A stretch of 32,890 nucleotides of DNA from Candidatus Wildermuthbacteria bacterium RIFCSPHIGHO2_01_FULL_49_22b (GTDB lineage Bacteria > Patescibacteriota > Minisyncoccia > Minisyncoccales > UBA10102), in the NCBI GenBank assembly GCA_001823165.1, contig MHTT01000001.1, forward strand, positions 1 through 32,890, read 5' to 3'. The notes below the pieces were generated by a model that made no database searches, was not told where the DNA came from, and saw only the letters and a list, made by a program, of their open reading frames with translations. Of this stretch, positions 19,153 through 32,494 are shown one piece after another (the stretch's first letter is position 1; each line of letters starts with the position of its first letter). Both the position numbers and the translations under genes were made by a program.

Positions 19153-20136
19153 ATGGCATTTTTTGACGACAAAACCATACTGGTAACGGGGGGATGCGGT
19201 TCTTTTGGTCAGAAGTTTGCAGAGGTTGTTTTGCGCGACCACAATCCACAGAGTATCCGCATCTATGACCACAACGAGCTTGGTTTGGTTGAGATGGAGC
19301 GGGCCATGCCAGATTCCCGCCTCCGTTTTCTTGTAGGAGACGTGCGAGACAGAGGACGCTTGACCCGGGCAATGAACAGGGTGAACATTGTGGTGCATGC
19401 CGCGGCCTTAAAGCATGTGCCCGTGTGCGAATACAACCCCATTGAAGCTATCAAAACCAATATTGATGGAGCTTGTAATGTTATTGATGCAGCCCTTGAT
19501 GCGAGGGTGGAGCGCGTCATGGCAGTGAGCACGGACAAGGCGGTGTATCCGGTGAACCTGTACGGGGCAACTAAGAAGGTTGCAGAACAGCTCTTTGTGC
19601 AGGCAAACGTGTACACGGGAAGCCATGGCAAGACGGAGTTCAGCTGCGCCAGGTACGGGAACGTGATTGGAAGCAATGGAAGCGTGATACCTCTTTTTAT
19701 TGAGCAGAAGCGCCGGGGGGAGATTACCATTACCGACGAGCGCATGACCAGGTTCTGGGTAGGGCTTCAAGAAGGGGTTCAGTTCGTCATTCGTTCCATA
19801 GAACAGATGGTGGGTGGAGAAATCTTTGTGCCCCGGCTTCCTTCCATGAAGCTGTTGGACTTAGTGGAAGTCATCGCTCCGGGCGTGGAGCGCAGAATCA
19901 TTGGTATCAGGCCCGGGGAAAAACTGCATGAAGCGCTCATTACCCCAGAAGAAGCAACCCGCACGCTTCAGTTTACAGACCACTTTGTGGTCACGCCCGC
20001 CTTTCCTTTTTGGGAGAGCGACAACCACAAGGAAGGAAAGGAGGTTTCCCGGGACTTCTTTTACGCAAGCCACACCAACGATTGGTGGCTTAGTCGGGAA
20101 GAAATGCACCAGCTATGCAAAGAGTTTCTCGTATAA
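19153..20136 (+). CDS. pseB: UDP-N-acetylglucosamine 4,6-dehydratase (PseB-like)
   Basis: PseB-type enzymes turn UDP-GlcNAc into a 4-keto-6-deoxy sugar with inversion at C5, the first step toward pseudaminic acid. The NADP loop is LVTGGCGSFGQ (10-20), with Cys where most members have Thr. Catalytic Asp128 and Lys129 (STDKA) and Tyr137 with Lys141 (YGATKK) match the family. HAAALKHVPVCEYNPIEAI (82-100) is also diagnostic. The length of 327 residues is standard. It is followed at once by a PseC-like gene that overlaps by 22 bases, as in pse clusters. The Gly-for-other or Cys16 variation is unlikely to block NADP binding. The inverting or retaining outcome is inferred from similarity. Confidence 0.88.
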   Translation: MAFFDDKTILVTGGCGSFGQKFAEVVLRDHNPQSIRIYDHNELGLVEMERAMPDSRLRFLVGDVRDRGRLTRAMNRVNIVVHAAALKHVPVCEYNPIEAIKTNIDGACNVIDAALDARVERVMAVSTDKAVYPVNLYGATKKVAEQLFVQANVYTGSHGKTEFSCARYGNVIGSNGSVIPLFIEQKRRGEITITDERMTRFWVGLQEGVQFVIRSIEQMVGGEIFVPRLPSMKLLDLVEVIAPGVERRIIGIRPGEKLHEALITPEEATRTLQFTDHFVVTPAFPFWESDNHKEGKEVSRDFFYASHTNDWWLSREEMHQLCKEFLV

Positions 20137-21254
20137 AGAAATATTTGCCGTATGGTCATCAGTGGATTGATCAAGAGGATGTCCGGGCGGTAGTAAAAAT
20201 ACTGAGGTCAGAATGGCTTACCCAGGGTCCGCTGGTGGAAGAGTTTGAAAATGCAGTTGCCAAGTATTGCGGAGCAAGATACGCACTTGCCGTTTCCTCG
20301 GGAACAGCGGCGCTCCATGTGGCGTATTTTGCAGCCGGTATTCAAAAGGGAGACGAAGTTATCATGAGCCCCCTGACGTTTGCGGCAACCGCGAATACCG
20401 CCGTTTTTCTTGGGGCCAAACCCGTGTTTGCGGACATAAAAGAAGATACTTTGAATATTGACCCCGCGGAGGCAGAAAAACGCATAACCAAAAAGACAAA
20501 GGTTATTATGGCAGTGGACTTTGCCGGGAGGCCTTGCGAGTATAAAGAGCTCTCCCGCATTGCCCGCAAGCACAAGCTTGTGCTCATGGCGGACGCGGCG
20601 CATTCTTTGGGGGCAACATACAAAGGAAAGAAGGTGGGTCAGCTGGCTGATATAACGACATTAAGCTTTCATCCCGTCAAGGCAATCACCACCGGGGAAG
20701 GGGGAATGGTTTTGACGAATAACAGGAAGTTTGCCGAGAAAGCTCGTAGGTTCCGCAATCACGGCATTGAGCGTAAACCGGGGAAAAGGGGCTGGTACTA
20801 TGAGATTGCAGAGCCCGGGCTCAACTACCGAATCACGGACATTCAATGCGCCTTGGGATTGAGTCAGTTAAAAAAACTCAACGGCTTTCTCAGACGCAGA
20901 AGGGAGCTTGCGCGCCAGTACCGAGGACTCCTGAAAGGTGTCAAGGGACTTATTCTTCCAACAGTAGCGAGGGAAGCACAATCAGCATGGCATTTGTACC
21001 CGGTGCAGATTGCCAAGGGAGCGGCAAGGAGAAAAGAGGTGTTTGATAAACTTAGACAGCAGGGGATTGGAGTGCAGGTTCATTATATGCCCCTTCATCT
21101 GCACCCGTTTTACAAAAGGAAGTTTGGATACAAAAGGGGAGATTTCCCTAACGCAGAACGCTACTACGACAGGGCCTTGAGCATTCCTTTGTTTCCCGCA
21201 ATGACCAATCTTCAGCAAAAGCATGTGGTACAAGCATTAATAAATCTTTTATGA
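20115..21254 (+). CDS. pseC: DegT/DnrJ/EryC1 aminotransferase, PseC-like
   Basis: It would add an amino group at C4 of the PseB product, using PLP and glutamate. Features are SSGTAALHVA (61-70) for the phosphate loop, ADAAHSLGA (159-167) with Asp160, and SFHPVKAITTGEGG (184-197) with Lys189 as the PLP lysine. The start YLPYGHQWIDQEDV resembles PseC N-termini. At 379 residues the length is normal. It overlaps the 3' end of pseB by 22 bases and the next gene by ATGA, so translation is coupled. Residues that separate PseC from retaining-path enzymes cannot be checked by eye. Confidence 0.87.
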   Translation: MQRVSRIKKYLPYGHQWIDQEDVRAVVKILRSEWLTQGPLVEEFENAVAKYCGARYALAVSSGTAALHVAYFAAGIQKGDEVIMSPLTFAATANTAVFLGAKPVFADIKEDTLNIDPAEAEKRITKKTKVIMAVDFAGRPCEYKELSRIARKHKLVLMADAAHSLGATYKGKKVGQLADITTLSFHPVKAITTGEGGMVLTNNRKFAEKARRFRNHGIERKPGKRGWYYEIAEPGLNYRITDIQCALGLSQLKKLNGFLRRRRELARQYRGLLKGVKGLILPTVAREAQSAWHLYPVQIAKGAARRKEVFDKLRQQGIGVQVHYMPLHLHPFYKRKFGYKRGDFPNAERYYDRALSIPLFPAMTNLQQKHVVQALINLL

Positions 21255-21892
21255 CTCTGCTTGAGAAAGTTGAAAACGCAAAAAAACTTATAGCAGAATA
21301 CGCTGAAAAATATCCCAAGAGCGCGGTTGCGGTTTCCTTTGGCAAGGACAGCACCGTGGTTCTCCATTTAGCAAAACAGGTGAAGCCGGACATTAAGGCG
21401 TTTGCCGTTTTGTCCGATACGGAGTTTCCAGAGATTCTTCAGCTTAGAGACCGGATTGTGAAAGAATGGAGCTTGAATTATGCGGAGTATCAGTATAAAA
21501 ATGACCCTGCAAAAGGATTGGAGGATTGCTGCAAGTCAGGCAAGCTGGAAGCAATCAAAAAAGCCGTACAGGAGCTTGACTGTTGGTTTTCCGGGGTGCG
21601 CAGGGATGAGGGTATAACAAGAACGGATATGCCGTTTGTGGAAGAGAAGGATGGCTTGGTAAAGGTTAATCCCATCTTGGATTTTACCGAAAAAGATATA
21701 TGGCACTACATTGGAGCGAACGCTATCCCCGTGGTCGTCCAATATGCCCAGGGATATCGTTCTTTATCTTGTAGTAAGTGCTCTGCCCCGGAAGAAGATG
21801 AAAATGAACCTGAGAGAGCGGGCCGCTGGAAAGGAACAAAGTCACAGGGGGGAGAATGCGGCATCAACGTGGAGTCGCTCAAGAAGCTATAG
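21251..21892 (+). CDS. cysH: APS reductase-type CysH (adenylyl-sulfate reductase) in a glycan operon
   Basis: Every motif of the iron-sulfur type of APS reductase is visible: the P-loop SFGKDSTVVLHL (29-40), Cys-Cys at 93-94 (CCKSGKLEA), WFSGVRRDEGITR (112-124), CSKC (174-177) for the [4Fe-4S] cluster, ERAGRWKGT (188-196) and the C-terminal ECGIN (202-206) with the catalytic Cys203. The usual end is ECGLH, so Asn replaces His. It would reduce adenylyl sulfate to sulfite with thioredoxin or a similar donor. It overlaps pseC by ATGA, so it is in the sugar operon, but no sulfate adenylyltransferase or sulfite-using enzyme is visible. A role in sulfonated or sulfur-bearing sugar synthesis is possible. 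Confidence 0.85.
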   Translation: MTLLEKVENAKKLIAEYAEKYPKSAVAVSFGKDSTVVLHLAKQVKPDIKAFAVLSDTEFPEILQLRDRIVKEWSLNYAEYQYKNDPAKGLEDCCKSGKLEAIKKAVQELDCWFSGVRRDEGITRTDMPFVEEKDGLVKVNPILDFTEKDIWHYIGANAIPVVVQYAQGYRSLSCSKCSAPEEDENEPERAGRWKGTKSQGGECGINVESLKKL

Positions 21893-21909: not shown

Positions 21910-22833
21910 TCACTGCGTACCATCACTCGCCGATTCTTTGTTGAGAATTGGCTTGAGGTATTTGTTGGTAAACAAGACAATGCCCTCGGTGTTTAAGTGG
22001 TCATGATCTTGGTAGAGACACGCATCAGCGATGCTTTCTGATAGGTCATACCATTCGGTTCCGTACGCGGTTTGGAGTTCCTGGAGCGTTTGCTTGAGTT
22101 GCGTTTCTCCCGGCAAGTCACCCAGTAGGGTGGTGGGAAGAATAAAAATAAGGCGGGTGTCGCGCGAGCGCGCATATTGCGCAATACCCTCAAGTATAGC
22201 CTTATACTTTCCAAACACCGACTGCTCTGTTCCGTTTGGATAGAGGGACTCGATTCTTTTGCGCACCGCCTTTTCATCAACACGGCACAACGACTGGCTT
22301 TCTATACTTTGTGCGTTGGGCTTTTCAAGAAGCCAGTTCAGCGTGAGCTTGGATTTTAGGTAGGTTGCAAACATGCCGATAGGCGCTTTTCTTTCAAGCA
22401 AAAACGCGGAGAAACTCAAATCTAAAGGTTCGTCGTAAAAAAGGTCGTTGGCAACGTTCCACGCATCAGAATACAGCACCCAAGGGTCAATAAAATAAAC
22501 AATTGTGTCGGTTTCATTGTTCCGCTCAAAGAAATAGCGCAGGTAGAGTTCGCTCGCCCAAACCCCTCTGCCGCCTGAGCGAGACAGGTTGAGGACTGAT
22601 TTGCCTAGCAAGGATTCAACGCGCGAGTGATTCTGCGCGCGTGAAAAAATACGTCCATGAGACGTGCCAAGCATTACCACGTCAACGTGCGCATCGTTGG
22701 GTATGAAGGGCGTGGCAGCTTCCCAGCTGCTTTGGTCAAAATCGTGAATCCATAAGGGAATATTGGCCCAGAGCAGCGCCAATACCGCAACAATGAGGCC
22801 GAGCGAGCATGATTTTGCGATGAAAAGGCGCAT
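21910..22833 (-). CDS. SGNH/DltD-AlgX-like hydrolase, partner of the MBOAT acyltransferase
   Basis: A single N-terminal membrane anchor (about 8-27) is followed by an extracytoplasmic SGNH-type domain: VVMLGTSHGRIFS (52-64) holds the nucleophile Ser58, and YQDHDHLNTEG (274-284) holds the Asp276/His279 pair. The pattern is shared by AlgJ/AlgX/DltD-type proteins that transfer acyl groups onto exported polymers. It lies three bases downstream of the MBOAT gene on the same strand. It converges on the CysH gene with a 17-base gap. The acceptor is probably the surface glycan made in this region; the acyl group is probably acetyl. Confidence 0.78.
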   Translation of the reverse strand: MRLFIAKSCSLGLIVAVLALLWANIPLWIHDFDQSSWEAATPFIPNDAHVDVVMLGTSHGRIFSRAQNHSRVESLLGKSVLNLSRSGGRGVWASELYLRYFFERNNETDTIVYFIDPWVLYSDAWNVANDLFYDEPLDLSFSAFLLERKAPIGMFATYLKSKLTLNWLLEKPNAQSIESQSLCRVDEKAVRKRIESLYPNGTEQSVFGKYKAILEGIAQYARSRDTRLIFILPTTLLGDLPGETQLKQTLQELQTAYGTEWYDLSESIADACLYQDHDHLNTEGIVLFTNKYLKPILNKESASDGTQ

Positions 22834-22836
22834 GTG

Positions 22837-24318
22837 CTAGAAAATAAAGTATATAAACTGGCGTTCGCCGAATTTCCCGAACACCAAAAGGAAAAAGATT
22901 ATCGTCACGTACAAGGGCCACCTCACAAACCAGCGGTAGGCAGAGAACATGTGGCGGATGTGCGTGTGCGGCTGGATGATATGCACAAATTCCATAAATG
23001 CAAGCGCAAGCACGACGATGAGCAGTTCGCGTTTATCCTGCCCTAAGAAAACGAACTCGTTGAGATAGGCGGTATTCCATACGGCAATATTATAGAACCA
23101 TTCGCCTATCCCCTGTAAGCTGTGGGTAAAGATATATACCGCGTCGCGCATAGTTTGCGCCCGGAATAGAACCCAGGCAACACATGTAAGAAAGAAGGTG
23201 GTGACAATCTGCAAATACGCATGCAGGGTGGGTACTTTATAAAGCCGAAATAAACAAACGCCCTGGGCGCGAATATCTTCTGTTAGGCGGGAAGCGATAA
23301 GATAGAATCCATGCAGAGCTCCCCACGCGACAAATGTCCACGCGGCTCCATGCCAAACCCCACTTATGAGAAACGTAAGGAAAATATTTATGTATAATTT
23401 CCCGGTGCCAACACGGTTGCCGCCAAGCGGAATGTATACATAGTCCCGAAACCATGTAGAGAGAGATATGTGCCAACGCGACCAAAACTCCCCAATTGAT
23501 TTTGCAGCGTATGGCCTTCTAAAATTGTCTCTTAGATTAAAGCCGAGGGTTTGCGCGGTGCCAATGGCAATGTCTGAGTATCCGGAAAAATCACAATAGA
23601 TTTGGAACGCAAAAAACACGGTTGCGAGAATAAGGGGCATGCCGGTAAAGGACTCCGGACTTTGGTAGACATAGTCAACAAAAACCGCTAAACGGTCCGC
23701 AATTACTACTTTTTTAAACATGCCCCATGCGGCAAGTTTCAGACCGCCGGTTATCTGTTGGTAGTCAAAGGTATGCGTTCCGTTGAACTGACCTAAAAGA
23801 TGCGGAGCCCGCTCAATGGGACCCGCTACAAGTTGCGGAAAGAACATGATGTACAGAAGATACTTGAAGAAATTTCTTTCCGCTCCAAGTTTTGCGCGAT
23901 GCACGTCAATGACATAGCTTATTATCTGAAACGTATAAAAGGAAATACCAAGCGGCAAAATAAGATTATGAATTATGGAACTGGTTCCGCCTCCAAAGAG
24001 CGTTGAGACATCATTTGCTGTAGAGATAAAAAAATTGAAATACTTGAATGTAAAAAGAATGAGTAAATTCGTAGCAATGCTGATTCCGAGAAGGACATGC
24101 CTTGTTCCTTGCCGCTCAGTTTTCTGAAGATAAATCGCAATGATGTAACTAGTCAATGCAGATACTAGGATTAGTACGATGTACTCGGGTTTCCATGCCA
24201 TGTAGAAATAAAAACTGGCTGCTAAAAGCAGCAAATTTTTAAGCTGACGCGGCAGGGCGAAATAGAGGAAAAATACAACCGGGAAAAATATGAGGAAGTG
24301 GAACGAGTTAAACAGCAT
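22837..24318 (-). CDS. MBOAT-family O-acyltransferase (AlgI/DltB-like)
   Basis: It is a membrane protein of 493 residues with about 11 membrane segments (first: FNSFHFLIFFPVVFFLYFAL). The family block FWSRWHISLSTWFRDYVYIP (278-297) and the catalytic His323 in GVWHGAAW, with His336 in GALHGFYL, are intact. PQLVAGPIERAPHL (161-174) is the conserved outer loop. It moves an acyl group from a cytoplasmic donor across the membrane for polymer O-acylation. The SGNH gene follows three bases later. Both genes run opposite to the sugar operons on either side and look more AT-rich, which may mean the pair was inserted as a module. A -10-like TATCAT lies about 30 bases upstream but its -35 is weak. Confidence 0.9.
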   Translation of the reverse strand: MLFNSFHFLIFFPVVFFLYFALPRQLKNLLLLAASFYFYMAWKPEYIVLILVSALTSYIIAIYLQKTERQGTRHVLLGISIATNLLILFTFKYFNFFISTANDVSTLFGGGTSSIIHNLILPLGISFYTFQIISYVIDVHRAKLGAERNFFKYLLYIMFFPQLVAGPIERAPHLLGQFNGTHTFDYQQITGGLKLAAWGMFKKVVIADRLAVFVDYVYQSPESFTGMPLILATVFFAFQIYCDFSGYSDIAIGTAQTLGFNLRDNFRRPYAAKSIGEFWSRWHISLSTWFRDYVYIPLGGNRVGTGKLYINIFLTFLISGVWHGAAWTFVAWGALHGFYLIASRLTEDIRAQGVCLFRLYKVPTLHAYLQIVTTFFLTCVAWVLFRAQTMRDAVYIFTHSLQGIGEWFYNIAVWNTAYLNEFVFLGQDKRELLIVVLALAFMEFVHIIQPHTHIRHMFSAYRWFVRWPLYVTIIFFLLVFGKFGERQFIYFIF

Positions 24319-24406: not shown

Positions 24407-25144
24407 ATGGATGTGCAGATATTCTTACAGGCGAGAATGGGGTCAACCCGATTTCCCGGAAAGGTATTGGCAGACATTACAGGCAAGAGCGTGTTTGAAC
24501 GCACCATTGAACGGTTGTCGCAAGTTAAAGGAGCGAGCAAGATTGTTCTCGTAACGAGCGAGAAACCAGAAAACGACCAGTTGGCGACACAGGCACAGCG
24601 TCTGGGGGTGCCGGTGTTCAGGGGGGCAGAAGAAAATACCTTGGATAGGTTTTATCGGGCAGCTCAGCAGTTCGGTCCGGATGCCGTTGTGCGAGTAACA
24701 TGCGACTGTCCCTTGATTGATCCTACACTCATAGACGAAGGGATTCGCTTGTTTAAAGAGAAAAGAGTTGATTTCCTTGGCAATACGCATCCCTTTAGTC
24801 ATCCTCACGGAATGCAGTTTGAGATAACGAGAAGGGACGCGCTTGAACGCGCCTGGAAAACGCAGCGCGACAGCTTTGCGGATGAGCAAAAGTTTAAGAG
24901 TGCGGACCTAAATCCAGGCGATCCCATCACGGAGGACCCGAGATTTCGAAAGGAATACATGACCCACGAACCCAATCTCGCCCATATTCGTATTACCCTA
25001 GATTACCCCGAAGACCTCGAAGTTATCAGAAAGGTATATGAACTGCTTCCCGAAGGAAAACGAGATTTCCCCCATATTGCTGATTTATTTGAAAAGCGTC
25101 CCGAACTTTTGGAGATTAATAAAATGCGTAACCGATACCTATGA
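24407..25144 (+). CDS. spsF: SpsF-type cytidylyltransferase
   Basis: The N-terminal signature IFLQARMGSTRFPGKVLADI (5-24) is that of the SpsF/acylneuraminate-cytidylyltransferase family, and VTCDCPLIDPTLID holds the metal-binding acidic residues. With 245 residues it is a single-domain enzyme. It would activate a nonulosonic acid (or a similar acidic sugar) with CMP. It is followed by two NeuB-family genes, an aminotransferase and others with ATGA overlaps, as in SpsC-SpsE-SpsF-type clusters. The gene ends in ATGA shared with the first NeuB gene. The sugar it activates is unproven. Confidence 0.85.
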   Translation: MDVQIFLQARMGSTRFPGKVLADITGKSVFERTIERLSQVKGASKIVLVTSEKPENDQLATQAQRLGVPVFRGAEENTLDRFYRAAQQFGPDAVVRVTCDCPLIDPTLIDEGIRLFKEKRVDFLGNTHPFSHPHGMQFEITRRDALERAWKTQRDSFADEQKFKSADLNPGDPITEDPRFRKEYMTHEPNLAHIRITLDYPEDLEVIRKVYELLPEGKRDFPHIADLFEKRPELLEINKMRNRYL

Positions 25145-26193
25145 AGAAAGAAATACATATTGGGGGAAAACCCATAGGTCCCGGCCACGATATTTTTTTG
25201 AGCTGTGAGGTTGGCACAACGCACAACGGAGAGTTTGATAAGGCCGTGAAAATCATTGAAGGTGCCGCCTATGCTGGTGTGGACGCGGTGAAGTTTCAGA
25301 TTATCGGCCCCGAGGAGATTCATAGCGACAAATCCAAAACCTATACCTATACCACCTATGACGGGGAGACCAAGACGGAGAATGAGGTGGAGCTGCTCAA
25401 GAAGTACAAGTTCACGCTCCCCGAGTGGAAGCGGTTAAAGGAGCTTGCGGAATCCAAAGGACTCATATTTTTTGCCACCGTGGACTATCCGGGAGCCATT
25501 GATATTGCAGAAGAACTTCAGGTGCCCGCCTACAAAATCTGTTCTTGGGATATGACGTATTATCCCTTCATCAGACGCATTGCCAGAATAGGCAAGCCCG
25601 TGGTGCTGGATACCGGTCCCATAGACACAGAAGACCTCGCCCGTGTGCTCAAAATTTTTAAAGAGGAAGGGAACGAACAGGTTATCGTGCTCCACTGTTT
25701 TCATACGGCAAGGCCCGAGGAAATGAATATGCGTTCCATTGCGTACATTAAGGATACGTTCGACGTGCTTTGCGGGCTTTCTGCTGCAGACCGCAACTTT
25801 GATGTTGATTTTATGGCTATTGCCTTTGGTCCCGTGATGATAGAGAAACGCCTCACCTTTGATAAGACAAACAAGGAACATCACCACGCCCAGGCCTTAG
25901 AGCCAGAGGAGATGAAAGAGTATGTGGAGAAGGTAAAGAAAGTTGCCAAGGCAGTGGGAAGGTATGGAATGTTTCCGAGTCCCGGGGATATTGAAGAGGG
26001 AAGATGGTCTTTGCGTAGGATTGTCGCCAACCGGGACATCGCCGAGGGCGAAACGTTTTGTGAAGAAAACATTGAATGCAAACTTCCTCAAGAGGGAGGG
26101 TTGCATCCTTTGTATTACTCTCTTGTTCTTGGAAAGATTGCCAAGCGCGCCTTGAAAGAGAACGAGCCAATCACCAAAGAAGACATTGGATAA
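25141..26193 (+). CDS. Divergent NeuB-family protein with altered active-site residues
   Basis: The protein (350 residues) has the NeuB TIM-barrel layout (SCEVGTTHNGEFDKAVKII at 21-39, AVKFQIIGPEEI at 49-60, then KICSWDMT with Lys132) plus a C-terminal SAF-like part (RRIVANRDIAEGE). However, compared with the next gene, which is canonical, it has lost several key positions: the HS of SDHS is replaced by Ala215-Ala216-Asp217, so the second metal His is gone; YPA after LHC is replaced by TARPE; EKHFTLD is EKRLTFD; and the SAF Arg-rich PRRPGTG is CKLPQEGG. His185 remains. It could be an altered-specificity synthase or a non-catalytic partner. It is translationally coupled to spsF and, two bases before the next ATG, to the canonical copy. 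Confidence 0.8.
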   Translation: MKKEIHIGGKPIGPGHDIFLSCEVGTTHNGEFDKAVKIIEGAAYAGVDAVKFQIIGPEEIHSDKSKTYTYTTYDGETKTENEVELLKKYKFTLPEWKRLKELAESKGLIFFATVDYPGAIDIAEELQVPAYKICSWDMTYYPFIRRIARIGKPVVLDTGPIDTEDLARVLKIFKEEGNEQVIVLHCFHTARPEEMNMRSIAYIKDTFDVLCGLSAADRNFDVDFMAIAFGPVMIEKRLTFDKTNKEHHHAQALEPEEMKEYVEKVKKVAKAVGRYGMFPSPGDIEEGRWSLRRIVANRDIAEGETFCEENIECKLPQEGGLHPLYYSLVLGKIAKRALKENEPITKEDIG

Positions 26194-26194
26194 T

Positions 26195-27247
26195 ATGGCT
26201 ACTTTTAAAATAGGAAAACGCACCCTAGGGGAAGGACACCCGTGCTTTATCATTGCGGAGGCCGGCATCAACCACAACGGGGATTTGAAAATCGCCAAGA
26301 AAATGGTGGATGTTGCCGCAAAAGCCGGTGCGGACGCCATCAAGTTCCAGACATTCAAGGCAGAGGAAGTTGTGAACACACAAGAGGAGATGATTGCCTA
26401 CCGTCATCAAGGCAAGCTGGTGAAGGAATCCTTTATGGGGCTTTTACGGAGCGTAGAGCTTGCTTACAAAGAGTGGCGCGAGTTAGCTGCCTACGCCAAG
26501 GCAAAAGACATTCTATTCTTTTCCACGCCCCAGAATATGCCGGACCTCCGCATGCTCATGAAAATAGGGGTTCCAGCCATTAAGGTAGGGTCTGACGACC
26601 TCACCTGCCTTCCCCAGCTGGCAGAGTACGCCAAGACCCGCCTCCCCATGATTGTGTCCACGGGCATGGCGTACCTTTCTGAAGTGGATGAAGCGGTGCG
26701 CACGATTCTCCCGCACAACCCCAAGCTTGCTGTGCTCCACTGCGTCTCCTTATATCCCGCGGAGTTTGAAGAGCTGAACCTGCGAAGGATAGAGACGCTG
26801 AAAAGCGCGTACCCCAATGTTGTGGTGGGATTCTCTGACCACTCCCGGGGAATCACGGCTCCCCTTGTGGCTGTAGCCCTGGGGGCAAAGGTGCTGGAAA
26901 AGCATTTTACCTTAGACCGGGGCATGAAAGGACCTGACCATGGTTTTGCCTTGGAATCAGACGAGCTCCGGCAGCTCGTCAGAGAAGTGAGAAATGCGGA
27001 GGCCTCGTTGGGAAGCTCCGTGGTAGAGCCGGTTGGGGAGCGGGAGCTGAAAGAGCGCAAGGAAAGCCAGCGTTCCCTGGTGGCCGTGAAGGACATTACC
27101 AAAGGAGAGAAAATCACAAAGGAGAACGTAGCGCCGCGCAGGCCAGGTACTGGACTTCCGCCAAAGTTTCTTTTGTATCTTCTCGGAAAGAAAGCAACAA
27201 GGGATATTAAAGCGCACGAGTTCATTCGCTTGGAAAGCATTCAATGA
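26195..27247 (+). CDS. neuB: N-acetylneuraminate/pseudaminate synthase family (canonical NeuB/PseI/LegI type)
   Basis: NeuB-family enzymes condense phosphoenolpyruvate with a 6-carbon amino sugar to make a nonulosonic acid. Motifs are intact: IIAEAGINHNGDL (19-31), AIKFQTFKAEEVV (48-60), LHCVSLYPAEFEELNLRRI (181-199) with His182, GFSDHSRGITAPL (212-224) with His216, EKHFTLDR (235-242), and the SAF-type end with VAPRRPGTGLPPK (312-324), which supplies the substrate-binding Arg. The start at 26195 is chosen over TTG at 26186 because the family begins near MATFKIG. It overlaps the following aminotransferase by ATGA. The final sugar is neuraminic-, legionaminic- or pseudaminic-like; pseB and pseC nearby make a pseudaminate-like route the leading guess. 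Confidence 0.9.
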   Translation: MATFKIGKRTLGEGHPCFIIAEAGINHNGDLKIAKKMVDVAAKAGADAIKFQTFKAEEVVNTQEEMIAYRHQGKLVKESFMGLLRSVELAYKEWRELAAYAKAKDILFFSTPQNMPDLRMLMKIGVPAIKVGSDDLTCLPQLAEYAKTRLPMIVSTGMAYLSEVDEAVRTILPHNPKLAVLHCVSLYPAEFEELNLRRIETLKSAYPNVVVGFSDHSRGITAPLVAVALGAKVLEKHFTLDRGMKGPDHGFALESDELRQLVREVRNAEASLGSSVVEPVGERELKERKESQRSLVAVKDITKGEKITKENVAPRRPGTGLPPKFLLYLLGKKATRDIKAHEFIRLESIQ

Positions 27248-28296
27248 TTCCCCATAACGTTCCAACATTAGGAAAGGAAGAGGAAGAGGCCGCAGTGCGC
27301 GTACTGCGCTCCCACTGGGTTGCAGAAGGCAAAGAGGTGGAGCAATTTGAAAAAGAGCTCTGCAAGTTCTTGGAAGTCCCCGCTGGGACAGCCGTGGCGC
27401 TTTCTTCTGGGAGCGCGGCGCTCTACGTTGCCTTGCAGGCGCTGGGAGTCGGCAGGGGAGACGAAGTAATTGTTCCTTCCTATGCTTGTTCTGCTCTTCT
27501 GGACGCCATTTTTCTTGCGCAGGCAACGCCCAAGCTCGTAGATGTGGAGGAAGAGGATCTTAACCTTTCTCTTGAGGAAACAAAGCGCAGCATCGGGAGA
27601 AAGACCAAGGCCATTATTGTGACGCACACGAACGGCATGCCAGCTGACATGAAAACGCTTATGCGGTTGGGCGTCCCGGTGATTGAGGATGCAGCGCAGG
27701 CGATAGGGGCAAGGTATGCGGGGAAACCAGTAGGAGTATTTGGCGATATTGCCGTGTTCTCATTTGGAGCAACCAAGATGCTTACGAGCGGGCACGGGGG
27801 CATGGTATTCTCCAAAAAGAGAAAACTCGGCCGACTGGCGAGGAGTTTCCGGCAGTACGAAAAACAGGGTCCCTATCGCCAGCGTTTCAACTTTCAGCTC
27901 TCCGACCTGCAGGCAGCAGTGGGAAGGGCGCAGCTCCGCAAGCTCCCGGACTTTCTCAAGAAAAGGAGGCAGACGGCAGAGACCTACCTGCGGGCGTTCC
28001 CGGCAGAGCGCTGCTGGCCGCCTTGTCTTGCGGGACGGCAGCCAAACTTTTATCGTTTTTTTGTCAAGGTGGAGCGCCCGGAATTGCTGCGGCAAAGGTT
28101 CAAAGAAGCCGGGGCGGAGACGCGCGTTCTGAGCCGGGCGATGCAGCCGCTCCATCGGCGTCTTGGGCTTTCGGCCGGAAAGTTCCCGAATACAGAATGC
28201 GCCTTTCAAACCATGCTCTCTTTGCCCGTGCACCCTTCCTTGCGAGCAAAAGACGTTTCTCGCATTATCAAGACAGGCAAGAATCTTATTTCCTAA
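27244..28296 (+). CDS. DegT/DnrJ/EryC1/StrS aminotransferase, second copy
   Basis: A PLP-dependent sugar aminotransferase of 350 residues. ALSSGSAALYVALQAL (52-67) and VIEDAAQAIGA (146-156) with Asp149 bind the cofactor, and SFGATKMLTSGHGGMV (173-188) holds Lys178. It differs from the pseC-like copy in the acceptor segments, for example HTNGMPADM in place of the usual HLFGxPADM, so it should accept another keto sugar. It starts with the ATGA overlap after neuB and is followed, after seven bases, by a TIM-barrel gene. An unusual CLAGRQ stretch (28015-28042) interrupts the region before the NFYRFFVK strand and may be another insertion. Confidence 0.87.
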   Translation: MIPHNVPTLGKEEEEAAVRVLRSHWVAEGKEVEQFEKELCKFLEVPAGTAVALSSGSAALYVALQALGVGRGDEVIVPSYACSALLDAIFLAQATPKLVDVEEEDLNLSLEETKRSIGRKTKAIIVTHTNGMPADMKTLMRLGVPVIEDAAQAIGARYAGKPVGVFGDIAVFSFGATKMLTSGHGGMVFSKKRKLGRLARSFRQYEKQGPYRQRFNFQLSDLQAAVGRAQLRKLPDFLKKRRQTAETYLRAFPAERCWPPCLAGRQPNFYRFFVKVERPELLRQRFKEAGAETRVLSRAMQPLHRRLGLSAGKFPNTECAFQTMLSLPVHPSLRAKDVSRIIKTGKNLIS

Positions 28297-31704: not shown

Positions 31705-31738
31705 AGGCCTCTGCGATGACGCAGGGGCCTTTTTGTTT
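31705..31738 (+). terminator. Rho-independent terminator of the transporter gene
   Basis: AGGCCTCTGCG (31705-31715) pairs with CGCAGGGGCCT (31720-31730) across ATGA, with one T-G wobble, followed by TTTTTGTTT. Confidence 0.93.
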
Positions 31739-31741
31739 ATA

Positions 31742-31770
31742 TTGACGAGAGTAGAAATTTCTCTTAGGAT
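31742..31770 (+). promoter_or_regulatory. Promoter of the WbqC gene, leaderless
   Basis: TTGACG (31742-31747), a 17-base spacer and TAGGAT (31765-31770). The ATG at 31778 lies seven bases beyond the -10. The spacer contains the palindrome AGAAATTTCT (31753-31762). Confidence 0.6.
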
Positions 31771-31777
31771 AGAAGCT

Positions 31778-32494
31778 ATGATTCTCACCGCCCACCAGCC
31801 CCTGTATCTTCCCTGGTTGGGCCTGTTTCACAAGGCGGCTTTAGCTGACGGATTCTGTTTGGTGGACAGCGTGCAGTACCTGCCAAAAGAGTTCATGAAT
31901 CGCAACAGGATTAAGACCCCCCAGGGCCCCATGTGGCTCACCGTGCCCGTGCAGAGGAAAGGGTATCGGGACAAGGAGACGCGGGAAATAGAGATTAACA
32001 ACGTCCTGGATTGGAGGCGCAAGCACTGGAAGGCCCTGCAGATTAATTACGGCAAGGCCCCGTACTTTTCTCGGTACGCGGATTTCTTTGAAGATGTGTA
32101 CAAGCGCGACTGGCAGTATATTGCGCAACTAAACGAGCATATCCTTCGTTGGCTGTTCCAGGAACTGGGCATCAAGGGAGGGTTTTGGAAGACCTCGGAG
32201 CTGGGAGTAGAAGGCAAAAAGTCGGACTTTGTCTTGGACATGTGCAAGAAGCTGGGAGCTGACCTCTACATTTTTGGGGCGTTGGGCAAGGACTACGCGA
32301 AAAGAGAAGATTTTATAAAAGCTGGCATCAAGCTTTACTTTCAGGACTACCAGCATCCGCAATACCTGCAGCTTCACGGAGAATTTCTTTCCCACATGAG
32401 CATTGTGGACCTCTTGTTTAACCACGGCCCCCGGAGCTTGGAAATCTTGATGGAAGGGAATATAACGAAAGAGAAGCTTGAGCGGCAGGGATAG
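31778..32494 (+). CDS. WbqC-family protein
   Basis: The N-terminus ILTAHQPLYLPWLGLFHKAA (2-21) is the signature of the WbqC family, with further typical stretches DSVQYLPKEFMNRNRIKTP and LTVPVQRKG. The length of 238 residues is usual. The family is common in O-antigen and glycolipid loci, but its biochemical activity is not established, so no function is assigned beyond a role in surface glycan assembly. The start at 31778 is set by the family's N-terminus and by the promoter; an upstream in-frame extension runs into the terminator. It is followed after four bases by the last, partial gene. Confidence 0.88.
   Translation: MILTAHQPLYLPWLGLFHKAALADGFCLVDSVQYLPKEFMNRNRIKTPQGPMWLTVPVQRKGYRDKETREIEINNVLDWRRKHWKALQINYGKAPYFSRYADFFEDVYKRDWQYIAQLNEHILRWLFQELGIKGGFWKTSELGVEGKKSDFVLDMCKKLGADLYIFGALGKDYAKREDFIKAGIKLYFQDYQHPQYLQLHGEFLSHMSIVDLLFNHGPRSLEILMEGNITKEKLERQG

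Follow-up and report, generated by a model that had tools for sequence, protein, structure and literature searches.

A pair of NeuB-family genes

The 32,890-nucleotide stretch analysed here, from contig MHTT01000001.1 of Candidatus Wildermuthbacteria bacterium RIFCSPHIGHO2_01_FULL_49_22b and called the window in the following, contains two adjoining plus-strand genes, at 25141-26193 and 26195-27247, each encoding a 350-residue protein composed of a NeuB barrel and a SAF domain, as proposed in a preliminary description of this DNA. The product of the first gene, P0001, has lost both Mn-binding histidines and represents a group of proteins designated R-type; the product of the second, P0002, retains both metal-binding His as well as the Arg of the SAF domain and is referred to as canonical. 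The equal length of the two copies, also pointed out in that description, is real, but was judged to be incidental. The two are the only NeuB homologues in the host genome (584 kb, 33 contigs), and lie within a surface-sugar gene cluster occupying 12.5-32.5 kb of the window.

P0001 matches the NeuB barrel model PF03102 with 181.6 bits and the SAF model PF08666 with 40.4 bits. It shares 31% identity with P0002 across 343 residues; this value, together with the supported clade described below, indicates that the kinship of the two is not due to chance. Comparison with the NCBIfam equivalogs placed P0001 below the cut-offs of both NeuB_NnaB (222 bits, cut-off 399.65) and PseI (206 bits, cut-off 340.25), and P0002 likewise remains under both, at 367.5 and 292.2 bits. 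AlphaFold2 models of both proteins are confident, with predicted local distance difference test values of 95.4 for P0001 and 96.0 for P0002.

The translational coupling suggested for spsF, P0001 and the canonical copy is seen in the sequence: an ATGA overlap at 25141-25144 joins spsF to the R-type gene, which is followed, after a 1-base gap (TAA-T-ATG, 26191-26197), by the canonical gene. A second ATGA overlap, at 27244-27247, connects the latter to a gene for a DegT aminotransferase.

The remodelled active site of P0001

Several of the replacements first reported for P0001 were found as described: GFSDHS reads GLSAAD, with Ala216 (codon GCA, 25786-25788) in place of His216; LYPA reads TARP, as part of an HTARP which stands for canonical SLYPA; and RRPGTG reads KLPQEGG. 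The Mn pair of Neisseria meningitidis SiaC is taken here to be His215 and His236, a pairing of numbers which rests on the alignment and on structure 1XUU. Both ligands are replaced in P0001, by Ala216 and Arg237 respectively, so that the initial statement that the first metal His remains turned out to be wrong, and the alignment shows no displaced His at either canonical position. The Mn of NeuB is bound by two His (PMC7591256), and this two-His site is absent from P0001, as from all R-type members. The first change falls within Ser214-Ala215-Ala216-Asp217 (25780-25791), replacing S-D-H-S (SiaC 213-216); the second turns the EKHFTLD motif into EKRLTFD, by an Arg237 encoded by CGC at 25849-25851. 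LHC retains its His (His185), which lies outside the Mn-ligand pair. Similarly, the N-terminal Asn thought to persist is not the relevant one: the Asn of [IV]NHNG (SiaC Asn29) corresponds to Thr27 in P0001, and the surviving Asn aligns elsewhere.

Further changes accompany the loss of the metal ligands. Asp157 (25609-25611) replaces SiaC Ser154, and His188-Thr189 (25702-25707), following a 2-residue deletion, replaces Tyr-Pro (SiaC 186-187). A run of three histidines, His247-His248-His249, is encoded at 25879-25887. In the SAF domain, Leu315 (26083-26085) replaces SiaC Arg314, a loss peculiar to the window copy, the Arg being present in the other R-types read.

The residues kept in P0001 include Glu23, Lys51, Gln53, Thr113, Lys132, Ser135, Ser214 and Glu235; all of the phosphoenolpyruvate (PEP)-side and acid residues, namely E25, K53, T110, K129 and E234 in SiaC numbering, are thus accounted for. 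Positions 110 and 129 are PEP contacts conserved among NeuB pathways (PMC7371886); P0001 retains both, while positions on the metal and sugar side have changed to Arg, Asp, His and Trp.

Identification and distribution of R-type proteins

R-type proteins were defined by the residues Arg236, Asp154 and His186 (SiaC numbering) and by the absence of both metal His. Scanning 84,980 species genomes and running family-model searches on about 1,200 genomes separated them cleanly, since R-type members score over 380 bits and everything else 280 or less. They were found in 13 genomes, belonging to Patescibacteria, Phycisphaerae, Alphaproteobacteria and Flavobacteriales, and in one phage contig. The members are located in the window, L121 (genome G006), L122/L031 (G009), L032 and L288 (G199); in the Phycisphaerae loci L033, L034, L035 and L289; and in Roseospirillum parvum (L036), Flavobacteriales (L037), SAR116 (L038), Ruegeria atlantica (L041) and the phage contig (L304). 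The record of L035 is labelled Alphaproteobacteria, yet was drawn in the class of L034. The signature is carried by P0001 and 11 other non-redundant sequences, phage L304 included; in L288 the His is masked. The closest homologues of P0001, which share the signature, are 46-48% identical and come from two genomes of the same family. The spread is sporadic: 1/296 genomes in the Ruegeria family, 4/248 in Phycisphaerae and 3/380 in the sample of the window's phylum carry an R-type.

The single phage contig was detected in viral sequences by using a wider alignment, a scan with the first alignment having returned non-R-type NeuB proteins only; a search of INPHARED phages gave merely three matches, at 23-27% identity. 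Annotated records were also searched for R-types on plasmids, and the matches inspected (L153, L154, L156) were all canonical. Clusters that encode two NeuB-family proteins are known from Fusobacterium (PMC4045943).

Conservation within the R-type clade

The preliminary description had asked for a family tree, and the odd forms do make a clade, co-occurring with more ordinary forms. The 12 non-redundant R-types group together with 100/100 support (99 in another tree), as sisters of three proteins, designated T-type, in which His236 is replaced by Thr; joint support is 99/96. Ala216, by which the altered form had first been told apart, is not diagnostic, because its column is A, S, P, D, Q or K within the clade: the hallmark is the invariant Arg237.

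Residue conservation was counted over a non-redundant set of 11 R-type sequences. Thr27, Asp63, Asn81, Trp96, Trp136, Asp157, Arg237, Pro279 and Asp283 (P0001 numbering) are invariant, and so is His188 wherever readable; in the columns of Thr27, Asp157, His188 and Arg237, canonical sequences always or almost always have Asn, Ser, Tyr and His. Thr27, Trp136, Asp157, His188 and Arg237 together form a new set of invariant residues within the pocket. K53, T110, K129 and E234 (SiaC numbering) are invariant as well, and E25 becomes Asp in three members. Conservation is higher in pocket columns than in the others (0.69 vs 0.53; Mann-Whitney p=0.0035). The ratio of nonsynonymous to synonymous substitution rates (dN/dS), measurable only among Planctomycetes, to which the evidence of purifying selection is confined, is 0.04-0.09 for the R-types, as compared to 0.09-0.17 for the partner NeuB.

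These features bear on the possibility that P0001 is a decaying, functionless NeuB duplicate. Both metal ligands are gone, and in the window copy the SAF Arg as well, as decay might produce. However, R-types are not isolated copies devoid of conserved residues of their own: a clade extending across phyla, with its own invariant residues, a conserved pocket and dN/dS far under 1, rules out simple decay. Moreover, R-type genes have been kept by a phage and by genomes measuring 0.5-0.7 Mb, and the window reading frame is intact and coupled. Decay is therefore regarded as extremely improbable, and the claim that the active site has been remodelled in a conserved way is borne out by the clade.

T-type paralogues (L015, L026, L096) resemble R-types in the loss of His236 and in having Asp at 154; in Patescibacteria they occupy the same slot after SpsF, and their genomes also hold a canonical-type NeuB. 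They differ in keeping His215 and Tyr186 and in having no Arg at 236. In L290 and L291 a T-type follows GSAM, Gfo/Idh and SpsF genes, which is the slot of the R-type in L122. The placement of SpsF before either an R-type or a T-type, with unchanged gene order, suggests that both non-canonical types serve a single role.

Two other groups of NeuB-family proteins with unusual motifs were observed. In a patescibacterial PseI-like group (L009, L011, L017, L018, L019, L024, L025, L028; L121:3613-4755, reverse complement; L288:15122-16249) S-D-N-N, or S-N-N-N, stands for S-D-H, with His215 replaced by Asn and His236 kept; this SDNN-type group is possibly altered in metal use too. In Chloroflexota, NeuB proteins extended at the C-terminus to about 630 residues (L054, L065, L077, L085, L086, L095, L110) have Gly for the SAF Arg (VKGPGQG) and SGH for SDH.

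The surrounding sugar genes

The cluster in the window encodes, besides the two NeuB-family proteins, acyl- and methyltransferases, a xylose-isomerase-like TIM-barrel protein and the products detailed here, all from the plus strand unless indicated. PseB, the inverting UDP-GlcNAc 4,6-dehydratase (19153-20136), and the transaminase PseC (20115-21254, taking the first possible start codon) both exceed their NCBIfam cut-offs. They are followed by a PAPS-reductase-like protein (21251-21892) which is kept in patescibacterial R- and T-type loci, with counterparts at L122:1052-1690 and L032:4311-5003. The SpsF-like cytidylyltransferase (PF02348; 24407-25144) lies directly upstream of the R-type gene, with its 4-base overlap, and this order is common to the window, L121, L122 and L032. 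Downstream of the pair, the DegT aminotransferase (27244-28296), the second of the cluster, overlaps the canonical gene by 4 bases and is 62% identical to the DegT which precedes spsF in L121. A WbqC-family protein is encoded at 31733-32494, and several R-type clusters elsewhere have one too. Two minus-strand genes (21910-24318), which lie between those for the PAPS-reductase-like protein and SpsF, break the plus-strand cluster; their products have 307 and 493 residues, the longer resembling an MBOAT-type acyltransferase.

All 13 R-type genomes contain at least one further NeuB, separated from the R-type by no more than about 5 kb in 12 of them. The exception is G009, in which the R-type is on a short contig of 8.3 kb and the second NeuB is represented by a fragment at the end of a different contig. 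For comparison, genomes with any NeuB-family match amount to 16% in the phylum sample, 28% in the Ruegeria family and up to 69% in the Roseospirillum order. R-type neighbours belong to the pseudaminic acid pathway (PseB, PseC, PseG, PseF, a Pse methylase and a formyltransferase), elsewhere to WbuX/HisH/HisF. Near most R-types a single cytidylyltransferase gene was recognised, an argument in favour of one pathway and against two complete ones.

A compact Pse-type cluster is found at L304:1480-8543 of the phage contig (IMGVR_UViG_3300029893_000200), which contains terminase and amidase genes. The set, adjoining the terminase, consists of PIG-L, NeuB, an acyltransferase, WbqC, PseB, PseC, the R-type, PseF and a methyltransferase. 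Its NeuB is limited to the barrel (278 residues, no SAF match), and its R-type has a SAF domain with the Arg.

Two other roles were discarded. R-types are not substitutes for PseG, as PseG-like genes accompany them in Planctomycetes, Roseospirillum, Flavobacteriales and SAR116; PIG-L and WbqC are not R-specific partners, as both occur in the L154 cluster, whose NeuB is canonical. The spacing between R-type and NeuB genes varies from 0 to 5 kb, and in Ruegeria they lie on opposite strands. A fixed ratio of the two products, proposed on account of the coupling, is not a general feature, because adjacency of the two genes is not conserved.

Proposed function and alternative explanations

The R-type proteins are best read, with a probability of roughly 55%, as a distinct functional NeuB subfamily whose members catalyse, independently of a metal, an extra step in a nonulosonic acid pathway of the pseudaminic acid type, a reading drawn from sequence data. 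PEP, or a related keto acid, would still be bound; Arg237, in a geometry predicted to include Asp157 and His188, would replace the metal in polarising the electrophile. The enzyme would then condense PEP with a different acceptor, or act on the nonulosonic acid produced by the ordinary NeuB. The SAF Arg would normally serve the homodimer, and the window copy would do without it. Of the two ideas originally offered for the altered copy, that of an enzyme for another substrate seems the better one. In Caulobacter NeuB, the Mn-ligand mutant H245A retains some activity and the SAF Arg mutant R322A none (PMC7591256): activity may thus survive when just one metal ligand is lost, and the window copy may work unlike its kin or depend on another residue. 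It is more tentatively suggested that R-types form a metal-free NeuB-type class, with Arg at the Mn site, performing an unrecognised second NeuB-family step towards a new ulosonic acid or a modified pseudaminic-type acid.

Some observations weigh against a metal-independent catalytic step. The change of Ser154 to Asp near the presumed PEP site, together with the lost SiaC 184 position, could disfavour PEP, and the window copy is without the SAF Arg, essential in canonical enzymes. Ligand-sensing pseudoenzymes also have conserved pockets, and, with one cytidylyltransferase in each cluster, a second ulosonic acid would have no activating enzyme of its own.

The last point concerns especially a special case of the metal-independent reading, in which the R-type is a second ulosonic acid synthase, joining PEP to another aldehyde sugar, SpsF or PseF activating both products. 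The retention of PEP-side residues along with changes on the sugar side fits this proposal, and so does the separate-looking module of L122, L290 and L291, where genes for a GSAM-type aminotransferase, a Gfo/Idh oxidoreductase and SpsF precede the R- or T-type. It is nevertheless rather doubtful, given the one cytidylyltransferase near most R-types and the lack of any recognised second precursor pathway in the Ruegeria, Planctomycete or phage clusters. Still less probable is an active metal enzyme whose site has been relocated to the HHH run (247-249) with His188. The run is common to Patescibacteria, Planctomycete and phage R-types, and His188 is conserved where readable, but Roseospirillum (FHAD) and Ruegeria, SAR116 and Flavobacteriales (NGH) lack HHH while carrying the remaining signature, and the canonical GPDH motif likewise has the final His of the run.

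The other original idea, a heteromeric partner, would make the R-type a non-catalytic subunit forming a domain-swapped heterodimer with the ordinary NeuB, either lending its SAF domain or regulating. NeuB is indeed a domain-swapped dimer, in which the SAF Arg of one chain sits in the active site of the other (PMC7591256). The presence of a second NeuB in all R-type genomes is consistent with such a role, as is the phage pair, in which a barrel-only NeuB accompanies an R-type having the SAF Arg. In a fixed complex, however, the R-type and NeuB trees would be expected to agree more closely than the trees of further genes in the operon, and they do not: in a mirror-tree comparison, on a small sample of 8 loci, the correlation is 0.60 for R-type and NeuB, below 0.71 for R-type and PseB and 0.82 for R-type and PseC. 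Partners have been exchanged: they are drawn from two or more distinct canonical clades, and that of the close relative L121 is of a very different kind, the SDNN type. A SAF swap would also disable the canonical enzyme of the window, which would receive a SAF domain with Leu in place of Arg; the phage pair calls for the opposite arrangement. Finally, barrel-only NeuB-family proteins occur also on viral contigs without a recovered R-type (L112-L114), and neither adjacency nor strand is conserved. A heteromeric role is thus considered unlikely.

Comparison with known systems

The R-types are a real, conserved subfamily of NeuB, undescribed in the literature searched, where no paper on such a NeuB paralogue was found. 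P0001 resembles NeuB/SiaC of N. meningitidis (1XUU, 2WQP) over its full length, in the TIM barrel and the SAF domain (fold comparison Z 36.9, 26% identity), and shares with it E25, K53, Q55, T110, K129, S213 and E234. It differs in the replacement of His215 by Ala216, of His236 by Arg237 and of Arg314 by Leu315, and in S154D, Y186H, N29T and D247H. Among PDB sequences, P0001 matches PseI of Campylobacter jejuni (8H2C) best (E 3.2e-41, fold Z 35.7) and the neighbourhood is of the same Pse type, but P0001 has lost the metal ligands and, at 206 bits, is below the equivalog cut-off of 340.25. SpsE of Bacillus subtilis (1VLI) has the same NeuB and SAF domains and is paired with a SpsF-type cytidylyltransferase; in alignments it has preserved, unlike R-types, the His of the metal site in both S-D-H and EKH.

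NeuB is used as a marker gene for the synthesis of sialic, legionaminic and pseudaminic acids. R-types score as members of the NeuB family and may easily be mistaken for sialic acid synthases in annotation despite the lost metal site; they should not be labelled sialic or pseudaminic acid synthases. If they are enzymes, these bacteria and a phage make sugars which cannot be predicted from known pathways. Roseospirillum parvum and Ruegeria atlantica are cultured carriers.

A precedent for metal-free PEP condensation is provided by the metal-independent class of KDO8P synthases, whose fold belongs to the same superfamily (Z about 25). In these, metal loss accompanies one Cys-to-Asn change, whereas R-types have lost both His ligands and gained Arg, Asp and His. 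If enzymatic, they would be a natural example of a PEP-condensing site rebuilt without a metal.

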